Part shown: piece after piece, positions 28,690 to 32,980 of the stretch
How positions within the stretch are numbered: the stretch's first letter is position 1
Layout of the letters: every line of letters starts with the position of its first letter
Virus record (IMG/VR): IMGVR_UViG_3300020433_000021
Location: 1 to 34,493 of that record
DNA length: 34,493 nucleotides
Source: a virus
Strand: one strand, 5' to 3'
Notes under the pieces: model-generated
What the model was told of the DNA's origin: nothing
Seen by the model: only the letters and a program-made list of their open reading frames with translations
The model's database searches: none
Made by a program: the position numbers and the translations under genes

Positions 28690-28920
28690 ATGGCAGATAT
28701 AAAAGTCAGAGTAGGACAACAGAATGCCACAAGGGTGATTTCATCTCTGGCAGGTGCCCAAACTCTATCATTAACAGAATTAAGTGACGTGAACGTAGTT
28801 GGAACCTTACAAAACGGTATGGTTCTAGTTTATAATGGTGTAACTAAAAAATTTGATACAACCTTAGAATTAACGCCAGGTGCAGCACAGAATTTAGACA
28901 TCAACGGAGGAAATTTCTGA
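28690..28920 (+). CDS. Mini virion structural protein, 76 aa
   Basis: This short protein begins MADIKVRVGQQNATRVISSL, an N-terminus I remember from cyanophage structural or fibre proteins. It continues with LSLTELSDVNVVGTLQNGMV and VYNGVTKKFDT, a 'feature is defined by name and value' type strand pattern often seen in fibre anchors. It ends INGGNF, close to the LDGGTF end of the next protein, so it may be a shortened paralogue or an anchor peptide that keeps only both ends. The gga gga codons of that tail form the Shine-Dalgarno site of the next gene (28906-28911). No enzymatic motif is visible. Confidence 0.8.
   Translation: MADIKVRVGQQNATRVISSLAGAQTLSLTELSDVNVVGTLQNGMVLVYNGVTKKFDTTLELTPGAAQNLDINGGNF
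28906..28911 (+). promoter_or_regulatory. GGAGGA ribosome binding site inside a coding tail
   Basis: GGAGGA encodes Gly-Gly of the INGGNF tail of the 76-residue protein and sits exactly 10 bases before the ATG at 28922. It is one of the strongest Shine-Dalgarno matches in the window. Confidence 0.8.
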
Positions 28921-28921
28921 A

Positions 28922-30559
28922 ATGGCTAGTATAATTAGAATCAAACGATCATCGGGTACAGCCAAACCTGCTAGTTTGAACTGGGGTGAGATGGCGTATG
29001 TCACTGGTATTGGTAGTTTTGGTGGCACAAATCAATACAAGGACAGAGTTTTTCTAGGAGATGATGGTACAAATGTTAATCCTATAGCAGGACATTTTTA
29101 TACGTCGATGATGGAACACGCTGCTGGTACGATAGCAGGTGTGACAAATGCTCGTAATAGTGATGGTGGTATTGTAGCAATTCTTGATAGTGATCGAAAG
29201 GTAGATTTGTGGAATGTAGATAATATAAGAATTGATGCTAATACTTTATCTTCAACTGATACAGATGGTGATATAATTATTAATCCTAATGGTGCTGGTG
29301 AGATAATGGTTCCTGATGACACTAAACTTGGATTTGGTGGAGGTGTAAATGGAACAGCTGCTTCTGATGCAACTATAGAATATGATGAGAATGGAACAGA
29401 TGAATTAAGATTTGCTGGAGCAGATGTAAGATTTACTAGCAATAAGGTAACTATTGATAATACATTAGTTCTTTCAGGTGATGCTACATTTGATAAGATA
29501 AAGATTGATGATAATGTCATTTCTTCTATCTCTGGTTCAGATAACAAGATATTCATTGACCCATTTCCTGATGGTTTAAGTAATGAGGGTGATGTAATCA
29601 TCAAGGGTAACTTACAAGTTGATGGTACTACTACAACTGTTAACTCAACACAATCAACTGTTAACGATCCGATAATGACAGTTGGTGATGTTACCAGTAC
29701 TAGAACTGTAATGCAAACAGTTGCTAGTGGTGTTTCCACTGCAATTTTAGATGATGTAGTTGGTATTGCTCAAAATGATTTAGTTGCTGGAACAGGATTA
29801 CCTAATAGCGGTGTTACAACTGTTACTGCAATTAATCCAGGTGCGAAGATGATTACCTTTACAGGTACTACAACTTCAGGAATTTCCACTGGATCTCAGT
29901 TTACAATTACACATGCAACTGATACTAATACAGACCGTGGATTAAGTTTTAAATATAATACTGCATCTGGAACAGCAAATCAAAAGGATGGTTTCTTTGG
30001 ATTTGATGATAGTTCAATTGCTTCAAGCACTGCTGGTGCTGGAAATCATGGCACACACGGTGATGACAGTCGTAGATGGACTTATGTTCCTGACGCTACG
30101 ATTAATGCTAGTGTTGTATCTGGTACAAAAGGATTCTTAGATATTAAAGGTATCTACTATCAGTCTGGTGACTTTAATTCAGGTGGTGTTGTTTGGTTTG
30201 ATGATACTGGTTTACAGAGATCTACAAATAATCCTGCGTCTCCTGTAACAACATCAAAACAAGTATTAACTGCTATTACTAAAAACACTTTAGCATTAAG
30301 TGCAGCGATTACTGCTGCTGCAGGAGATATAATTAAACAGGACGTTACTGGTGCCTTTGGTATTGTAGAAAGTGGAGTAACTGGTGCGACATCAGTTAAT
30401 TTGATTGGTGTTGAAGGTACATTTAATACATCTGCCAATTTAAGAAAAGAGGGAAATAGTGGTGCGATAGCAAATCTATCATCAGTTCCTAACACTGTTA
30501 GTGTGATATATACAAACAAACCACATTGGACATCGACTCTCGATGGAGGAACTTTCTAA
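28922..30559 (+). CDS. Tail-fibre-like virion structural protein, 545 aa
   Basis: The N-terminus (MASIIRIKRSSGTAKPASLN, WGEMAY) matches the anchor segment of cyanophage fibre-like proteins, followed by DRVFLGDDG. The middle has repeated short strands (DGDIIINPNGAGEIMVPDD, VTIDNTLVLSGDATFDKIKI) and then NLQVDGTTTTVNSTQSTVND, a sequence type common in trimeric fibre shafts. The later RGLSFKY...DGFFGFDDSS, RRWTYVPDATIN and GFLDIKGIYY segments look like a distal beta domain. It ends LDGGTF. The position matches T4 genes 11, 12 and wac (short fibre and whisker region), so it may be a short fibre or whisker-type component; host-range involvement is possible but unproven. No His-rich receptor tip like that of gp12 is visible. 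Confidence 0.82.
   Translation: MASIIRIKRSSGTAKPASLNWGEMAYVTGIGSFGGTNQYKDRVFLGDDGTNVNPIAGHFYTSMMEHAAGTIAGVTNARNSDGGIVAILDSDRKVDLWNVDNIRIDANTLSSTDTDGDIIINPNGAGEIMVPDDTKLGFGGGVNGTAASDATIEYDENGTDELRFAGADVRFTSNKVTIDNTLVLSGDATFDKIKIDDNVISSISGSDNKIFIDPFPDGLSNEGDVIIKGNLQVDGTTTTVNSTQSTVNDPIMTVGDVTSTRTVMQTVASGVSTAILDDVVGIAQNDLVAGTGLPNSGVTTVTAINPGAKMITFTGTTTSGISTGSQFTITHATDTNTDRGLSFKYNTASGTANQKDGFFGFDDSSIASSTAGAGNHGTHGDDSRRWTYVPDATINASVVSGTKGFLDIKGIYYQSGDFNSGGVVWFDDTGLQRSTNNPASPVTTSKQVLTAITKNTLALSAAITAAAGDIIKQDVTGAFGIVESGVTGATSVNLIGVEGTFNTSANLRKEGNSGAIANLSSVPNTVSVIYTNKPHWTSTLDGGTF
30545..30550 (+). promoter_or_regulatory. GGAGGA ribosome binding site that decides the next start
   Basis: GGAGGA encodes Gly-Gly of the LDGGTF tail of the fibre-like protein and lies 10 bases before ATG 30561. 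An in-frame ATG at 30543 sits before this site and has no comparable Shine-Dalgarno sequence, so 30561 is the better start. Confidence 0.8.
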
Positions 30560-30560
30560 T

Positions 30561-30737
30561 ATGCAACCAAACAGTGAAGTGGACGTTAATGTACTAGTCA
30601 ACTTATATCATTCTAAATTAGCAGCAGCGTTAAATCAAAATGTTTTACTAGAGGCAAAATTACAAACTCTAAAAAATGATTTTGAAAAAGAACGTAATGA
30701 ATATCTTGAAGAAATTGCAAATCTTAAGGGTGAATAA
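30561..30737 (+). CDS. Small coiled-coil phage protein, 58 aa
   Basis: I choose ATG 30561 because a strong GGAGGA Shine-Dalgarno site lies 10 bases upstream; the earlier in-frame ATG (30543) would put that site inside the gene. The product begins MQPNSEVDVNVLVNLYHSKL and is almost wholly helical, with heptad-like hydrophobic spacing across LLEAKLQTLKNDFEKERNEY and LEEIANL, so a coiled coil is likely. Similar short helical peptides lie just before gene 13 in cyanophages, as I remember them. It overlaps gene 13 by one base (TAATG). The function is unknown; a small oligomeric assembly factor is a guess. Confidence 0.75.
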   Translation: MQPNSEVDVNVLVNLYHSKLAAALNQNVLLEAKLQTLKNDFEKERNEYLEEIANLKGE

Positions 30738-31567: not shown

Positions 31568-32980
31568 ATGGCATTAAATCCGTACTTTCAACAAGGGACT
31601 CAAGGTGAGCAGAGATTAGTACAAGATCTGATTAACGAGCATCTTAGACTTTATGGAATAGAGGTCACATATATTCCAAGAAAATTTGTCAATAAATCAA
31701 CAATTATTGAAGAAGTTACTGCATCTAAGTTTGATGATAACTTTGCAGTGGAAATGTATGTTAATTCTTATGATGGATATTCAGGTGCTGGTGATGTTTT
31801 AACAAAATTTGGTATGAGTTTAAGAGATGAAGTTGAATTAACCGTATCAAAAGAGAGGTTTGAAGAATTTATCGCTCCTTTTATGGTATCATCAGATGAT
31901 ATTGAACTTGCTTCAAGACCAAGAGAAGGAGATTTAGTATTCTTTCCACTAGGTCAAAGACTATTTGAAATTAAGTTTGTTGAGCATGAGGATCCATTCT
32001 ATCAACTTGGAAAGAATTATGTTTATAAACTTAAGTGTGAACTATTCGAGTATGAGGACGAGGTTATTGATACTTCGATTGACCTTATTGATACTCAGGT
32101 TCAAGATGAAGGATATATTGCTACTCTTCAACTTATCGGTGTTGGTAGAACCGCAACAGCGACTCCAATTTTAGGTTCTGGTTATATTCGTGAAATATTC
32201 TTGAACAATGATGGTTCTGGATTTACAGGAACTCCAACTGTTGCAATTAGTACATCACCTAGTGGTCTATCTGGAGATAATGCAACTGCTGTAGCATTTA
32301 CAACTGAGAGAGCAGGAGTTAGATCTGTAGAAAAGATACTATTGACTAACGCTGGTTCAAATTATACAACTCCACCTATTATTACAATTTCTGGTGGTGG
32401 TGGAACAGGTGCTGCTGCAACTTGTTCGATTAATACAGCATCTAACGGTGTTGTTAGATTTGTAATGACCGATAATGGCATTGGTTTTGGAACTGTTCCA
32501 ACTGTTACTGTTGATGCTCCTGCAGCTGGTATTGCAAGTGACCGTGCAATTGGTATTGCTTCTATCGGTGATGCTGGTGGATTTAATCGTGTCAATTCTA
32601 TATTTGTACAAAACGCTGGTATTGGATATACTGCTACTCTACCAACTGTTACAATTTCAGATCCTGAAACAATTAGTGGAATTGGTACATATCTATTCAA
32701 TGAAACCATCGAAGGACAGAGATCAAAAACTAGAGCAATAGTCAAAAATTGGGATCAAGATACTGGAATATTATCTATTTCCAATGTTGGCATTGGAACA
32801 ACTACACTTGGTTTCTTCAAAGGAGAGGATATTAAAGGTCTTACATCGGGTGCTTTATTCAGTGTAGGAATTTATGATAGGGATGATAGTACCGATAAAT
32901 ATAATGAAGGTGACATATTTGAGACGGAGGCAGACGCTATTCTCGATTTCACGGAGTCTAATCCATTTGGTACATTCTAA
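31568..32980 (+). CDS. gp14: Neck protein gp14 with four-repeat beta insertion
   Basis: Residues 1-190 match the gp14 neck fold: NPYFQQGTQGEQRLVQDLIN, HLRLYGIEVTYIPRKFV and a conserved RLFEIKFVEHEDPFYQLGK...YVYKLKCELFEYEDE block. T4 gp14 has 256 residues; this one has 470. The extra length is mainly four tandem GxG(Y/F) beta repeats at about 207-367, followed by a C-terminal region (LFNETIEGQRSKTRAIVKNW) that resumes a gp14-like end and finishes NPFGTF. In T4, gp14 forms a hexameric ring between gp13 and the tail; the repeats would probably decorate the outside of the collar. Its stop overlaps the gene 15 start (TAATG). Confidence 0.92.
   Translation: MALNPYFQQGTQGEQRLVQDLINEHLRLYGIEVTYIPRKFVNKSTIIEEVTASKFDDNFAVEMYVNSYDGYSGAGDVLTKFGMSLRDEVELTVSKERFEEFIAPFMVSSDDIELASRPREGDLVFFPLGQRLFEIKFVEHEDPFYQLGKNYVYKLKCELFEYEDEVIDTSIDLIDTQVQDEGYIATLQLIGVGRTATATPILGSGYIREIFLNNDGSGFTGTPTVAISTSPSGLSGDNATAVAFTTERAGVRSVEKILLTNAGSNYTTPPIITISGGGGTGAAATCSINTASNGVVRFVMTDNGIGFGTVPTVTVDAPAAGIASDRAIGIASIGDAGGFNRVNSIFVQNAGIGYTATLPTVTISDPETISGIGTYLFNETIEGQRSKTRAIVKNWDQDTGILSISNVGIGTTTLGFFKGEDIKGLTSGALFSVGIYDRDDSTDKYNEGDIFETEADAILDFTESNPFGTF
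32186..32668 (+). repeat. Four tandem GxG(Y/F) beta repeats in gp14
   Basis: Four units of about 45 residues follow one pattern. Their cores are NNDGSGFTGTPTVAIS, NAGSNYTTPPIITISGGGG, DNGIGFGTVPTVTVDAP and NAGIGYTATLPTVTIS, each preceded by a (V/I)-x-x-I-x-(V/L) strand. The same unit appears in the giant protein, gp8 and the DUF4815 protein. Confidence 0.85.

Follow-up and report, generated by a model that had tools for sequence, protein, structure and literature searches.

Shine–Dalgarno (SD) sites that lie inside the last codons of an upstream gene are a known phenomenon (Eyre-Walker 1996; Palleja et al. 2009, PMC2784483), and the usual distance between the SD site and the start codon is 4–11 nt (Palleja et al. 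2009, PMC2784483). Marine T4-like phages carry pairs of short and long fibre-associated genes in which this arrangement can be examined. Prochlorococcus phage P-SSM2 encodes the tandem pair PSSM2_117/PSSM2_118 (T4-GC 113/114; PHROG 13853/15769) before gp13-gp14-gp15, with protein ends NGGNF and DGGTF. The adjoining short and long genes PHM1_092/PHM1_093 of P-HM1 (Eurybiavirus) end in VNGGSF and IDGGTF. Related tails are found in the short and long fibre pairs of the Methylophilales phage Melnitz (LNGGTF and IDGGTYS) and the pelagiphage Mosig (INAGAF and IDGGSF), both of which are listed under Kyanoviridae.

The locus described here was compared with these pairs. Its gene junctions very probably combine two superimposed layers, namely a conserved protein tail and, where the next gene is close, Gly codons of that tail which act as the SD site of this gene.

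Data sets and classification

Relatives of P545, P76 and gp15 (80 each; see below for the proteins) were taken from IMG/VR; additional sets were centred on P-HM1, ACG-2014f, Melnitz and DSL-LC03. Eight seed proteins served to gather all related open reading frames (ORFs), and the presence of the tail was not a selection criterion. Tails (243 representatives) fell into three classes according to how far the next start lay from the two Gly codons: ≤10 nt (near), 11–14 nt, and ≥15 nt or none (far). The next start was assigned mechanically as the first ATG opening a long enough frame, and a few assignments may be wrong. The codon test was repeated on protein clusters as a control for relatedness, because codon choice is inherited by descent.

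Setting of the locus

The window, that is, the whole stretch of 34,493 nt that was analysed (IMG/VR record IMGVR_UViG_3300020433_000021), is a 34.5-kb virus contig covering a P-SSM2-like structural region (Kyanoviridae, Salacisavirus). Its gene order, gp25-gp6-gp7-gp8-large structural protein-small protein-P76-P545-small protein-gp13-gp14-gp15-gp16, is that of P-SSM2. P76 is a short fibre-associated protein of 76 aa ending in LDINGGNF (28690..28920, + strand; assigned as an ORF), a homologue of PSSM2_117 (T4-GC 113) with 73.7 % identity. P545 is a fibre-like protein of 545 aa ending in STLDGGTF (28922..30559, + strand), a homologue of PSSM2_118 (T4-GC 114; 61 % identity) and of PHM1_093; it matches PHROG 15769 with an E value of 1.5e-120. 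The two homologous proteins, short and long, in tandem and before gp13-gp15, form a fibre pair of the P-SSM2 type, and their NGGNF and DGGTF tails are identical to those of P-SSM2. The downstream small gene (30561..30737, + strand) encodes 58 aa from ATG 30561 and begins MQPNSEVDVNVL...

Synechococcus phage DSL-LC03 (L210:7548-8879) encodes one 443-aa protein in which a P76-like N-terminus is fused to a P545-like remainder; the fusion replaces the NGGNF-stop-ATG junction. The P-HM1 pair sits upstream of a gp7-annotated gene and not before gp13 as in the window.

The two junctions

The tail INGGNF and its stop are encoded at 28900..28920 (+ strand; sequence aac gga gga aat ttc tga), and LDGGTF and its stop at 30539..30559 (+ strand; sequence gat gga gga act ttc taa). 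As stated in the preliminary description, both Gly pairs are spelled gga gga, and each GGAGGA lies 10 nt 5′ of the next ATG. The hexamer at 28906..28911 (+ strand) is the candidate SD site of the P545 gene (ATG 28922), and that at 30545..30550 (+ strand) is the candidate SD site of the next small gene (ATG 30561). The + strand of the window has eight copies of GGAGGA, of which those at 28906, 30545 and 1543 (AAGGAGGAAGATTAAATGG) sit just 5′ of an ATG.

At 28906 and 30545 the sequence contains a GGAGG core complementary to the anti-SD. The distances of 10 nt for GGAGGA and 11 nt for GGAGG at both junctions are at the upper edge of the 4–11 nt interval of Palleja et al. (2009). Across the tails, too, the distance from core to start was at the long end (9–11 nt or more). 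The 3′ end of the 16S rRNA carries CCUCC in cyanobacteria.

A version of the downstream gene with 64 aa opens at an extra in-frame ATG at 30543, which is created by the gat-gga overlap. Equivalents of this ATG are absent from 26 of 50 relatives because their Asp codon is GAC. The conserved sequence M-x-x-N-[SN]-EVD[VI]N in relatives of the downstream small gene begins at ATG 30561, the conserved start.

The identical spacing of the two junctions, which the preliminary description had pointed out, did not hold up in relatives. GGAGGA stood at 10 nt in both genes in only three of 46 P76/P545 pairs, the window included, and the two spacings were equal in only 10 of the 46. The identical hexamer and spacing of the two junctions in the window are a coincidence and are not conserved.

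The two junctions are also similar over 19 nt, and the shared GGAGGA-A-x-TTTCT-x-A might be the mark of a recent duplication or of a cassette recombination junction, with neither layer under selection. The DSL-LC03 fusion would agree with this, since it implies that genes fuse or split at this boundary. The relatives argue against it: their junction DNA varies (GGAGGT, GGGGGA, GGTGGT, TTT or TTC) while the residues are constant, all three stop codons and spacers of 8–21 nt are used, and the pattern occurred only at these two genes in nine P-SSM2-like contigs that were scanned whole. Such an origin is therefore regarded as very improbable.

Conservation of the tail as a protein motif

Among distinct relatives with an alignable C-terminus, every one of P76 (70/70), P545 (97/97), PHM1_092 (39/39) and PHM1_093 (54/54) had the GG-x-[F/Y] end, as did 20 of 21 members of Mel91 and 18 of 22 of ACG86. 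The preliminary description had proposed that GG-x-F is kept because its loss would silence the downstream gene, so that the Gly-Gly tail would mainly be a by-product of the SD site. This was not upheld: the tail was just as constant where the next start was 15–70 nt away or absent (PHM1_093, Mel91 and PSSM2_118) and where, with one clade excepted, the codons were not SD-like. Conservation of the motif is therefore at the protein level. It extends to the final F/Y and to the D/N before the Gly pair, residues that lie outside the SD sequence. Furthermore, four of the 22 distinct ACG86 members lack the first Gly (DAGFF, DCGFF) despite an overlap of the next ATG with the stop, so the GG is dispensable to the neighbouring gene. 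In the alignment of P545 with PHM1_093, a block of about 80 residues before the tail is missing in PHM1_093 and DSL-type relatives, and P-x-W-[S/T]-x-T-[I/L]-D-G-G is kept despite this.

Two points speak for the by-product explanation. Near-spaced tails almost always have GGA or GGG first, and two unrelated small proteins, of P-RSM4 (L221, 48749-48763; 59 aa) and P-SSM7 (L222, 43262-43276; 96 aa), end in GG-x-F, and in each a GGAGGN precedes the overlapping ATG by 8 nt; in these two proteins the SD site may be the real cause of Gly-Gly. For the fibre proteins the far-spaced families largely refute the explanation, and it is considered improbable.

GG-x-F was also considered as a general rule of the cassette and was rejected: in 18 records (phage genomes and contigs) real tails were found almost only at these fibre genes, and two unrelated small proteins with such tails were found outside them. 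No internal copies of [D/N]GG-type motifs were found in other proteins of the window. A G-x-[F/Y] end like that of the fibre tails occurs in gp14 (window 31568-32980) and its P-SSM2-like relatives, which end in NPFG-[S/T/N]-[F/Y]; there is no SD-like sequence before the gp15 start, and gp14 of other cyanophages runs past NPFG or ends otherwise. Searches of the open-licence literature, on the literal motif as well as on a C-terminal motif of cyanophage fibres, returned nothing relevant, and the C-terminal GG-x-[F/Y] motif itself appears to be undescribed.

Codon choice and distance to the next start

The first Gly codon was GGA or GGG (purine-first) in 112 of 116 tails at ≤10 nt (97 %), in 20 of 38 at 11–14 nt and in 20 of 89 at ≥15 nt or with no next gene (22 %); the near/far contrast gave a Fisher value of 5e-31 on representatives. 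When the P545 clade was left out, eight of 76 far tails were purine-first (10.5 %), and internal Gly-Gly pairs of the same proteins gave 118 of 1126 (10.5 %). Among near-spaced representatives GGA or GGG came first throughout in P76 (43/43) and P545 (35/35). At the level of protein clusters, the near versus far ratios were 11:1 versus 2:7 at 50 % identity (p=0.002) and 14:1 versus 8:17 at 70 % identity (p=0.0002). Codon choice thus shifted only with a close gene, the far clade of P545 excepted, and the earlier suggestion that the Gly codons carry a signal at the nucleotide level is supported by these counts.

The preliminary description had also called for a comparison with tails that have no close downstream start, where tails equally common and with unbiased Gly codons would mean a protein motif selected for itself. 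This comparison went against preservation of the ending for the sake of the neighbouring gene: far tails were no less constant, and their codons reverted to GGT/GGC first, with one clade excepted.

Alternatively, only the motif would be conserved, and the spelling GGA GGA would play no part in initiation and simply reflect codon usage or chance. GGA is common in the window (353 of 877 Gly codons), and GGA GGA alone is not rare. The proportion of purine-first pairs, 10.5 % internally against 97 % in near tails, contradicts this reading, as does the use of rare codons: GGG came first in 16 of 22 near PHM1_092 and 14 of 43 near P76 representatives, and makes up about 1.5–5 % of internal Gly codons there. 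This alternative is accordingly given very little credence. Internal Gly-Gly pairs of the P545, PHM1_093 and MelFib proteins strongly avoid GGA/GGG first, which would fit a tendency to keep SD-like sequence out of gene interiors.

The codon switch can be followed within single loci. In 26 of 30 loci of P-HM1 relatives the short gene was purine-first with a start 8–10 nt after, and the adjoining long gene was GGT-first with a start at ≥11 nt. P-HM1 itself differs from the window in that only the codons of the short gene are in SD position (GGAGGT, with a start that overlaps the stop); the long gene has GGT GGT and the next start is 18 nt past the stop. PSSM2_118 differs from P545 in its codons GGG GGT and in a next ATG that follows the stop by 12 nt, which leaves the tail outside SD position. 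In Melnitz the spacers are long and the Gly codons non-SD; the fibre gene has GGT GGC, and the next start follows its stop by 16 nt. For each far start of the Melnitz-type short gene the spacer contains a separate AGGAG/AAGG-type site. The homologous Mosig fibre ends in IDGGSF with GGA GGT and a next start that overlaps the stop; comparison of the two genes indicates an independent codon switch.

Exceptions to the codon switch

Of the 13 representatives of the far clade of P545 (P-SSM2 type), 11 had GGG as the first Gly codon, with the next ATG 15–21 nt away. This clade is one lineage, and GGG may reflect its history or a residual function. An excess of GGG in the tail was observed in L063, L066, L067, L070, L074-L079, L082 and P-SSM2 (L003), where GGG accounts for about 1.4 % of internal Gly codons. 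GGT came first in PHM1_093 relatives at 11–14 nt and in one at 9 nt, and in three of 14 ACG86 representatives with an overlapping next start. Comparisons of near and far tails within the single families P545 and PHM1_093 did not reach significance, because most of the variation in codon class and spacing lies between families, and so does the contrast.

Structure and domain searches

In the predicted models (AlphaFold) of P76 and P545 the tail lies in low-confidence stretches, which are too weak to place it. The monomer model of P545 is of low confidence (pLDDT 60, pTM 0.27) and gave weak partial matches to phage tail structure, endosialidases and tailspikes, a loose fibre/tailspike resemblance only. 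Beyond fibre-like folds the models gave no functional hint, the Pfam search gave nothing above cut-off, and a search of solved structures gave weak matches only, one of them to a tail fibre protein.

Proposed explanation and comparison with known systems

In the two-layer explanation, G-G-x-[F/Y]-COOH, often preceded by W-[S/T]-x-T-[I/L]-D, is a conserved C-terminal protein motif of a fibre-associated pair of T4-like marine phages, comprising one short (about 55–130 aa) and one long protein; we infer that the tail serves fibre assembly or docking. Where the next start follows the Gly codons by about 8–13 nt, these are mostly GGA- or GGG-first and give GGAGG(N) or GGGGG(N), which would pair with the anti-SD of the host and aid the start of the next gene. 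Pairing of the ribosome with the Gly codons of the tail is predicted from complementarity and distance. Where the next gene is farther away, the Gly codons go back to the ordinary, SD-avoiding GGT/GGC-first choice, and the spacer holds the SD-like site of that gene, if there is one. The protein motif would set where an SD site could sit, and synonymous choice would decide its presence.

A broader suggestion is more doubtful and is put forward tentatively: GG-x-[F/Y]-COOH might be an undescribed docking or assembly signal of marine T4-like fibre proteins with a common partner, to which the end of gp14 is possibly related, its Gly-Gly offering a ready SD site by synonymous change alone.

The locus draws attention to a short motif at the C-terminus of ocean phage fibres and provides a natural experiment on overlapping codes, in which the same motif with and without a gene start at SD distance separates protein constraints from ribosome-binding constraints. 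It also advises caution, as conserved DNA at a gene end should not be called regulatory, nor a protein tail a regulatory by-product, without such a comparison. In contrast to the known SD sites in coding ends, the two codons here encode an independently conserved C-terminal motif, so that cases with a gene close by can be set against cases without one.
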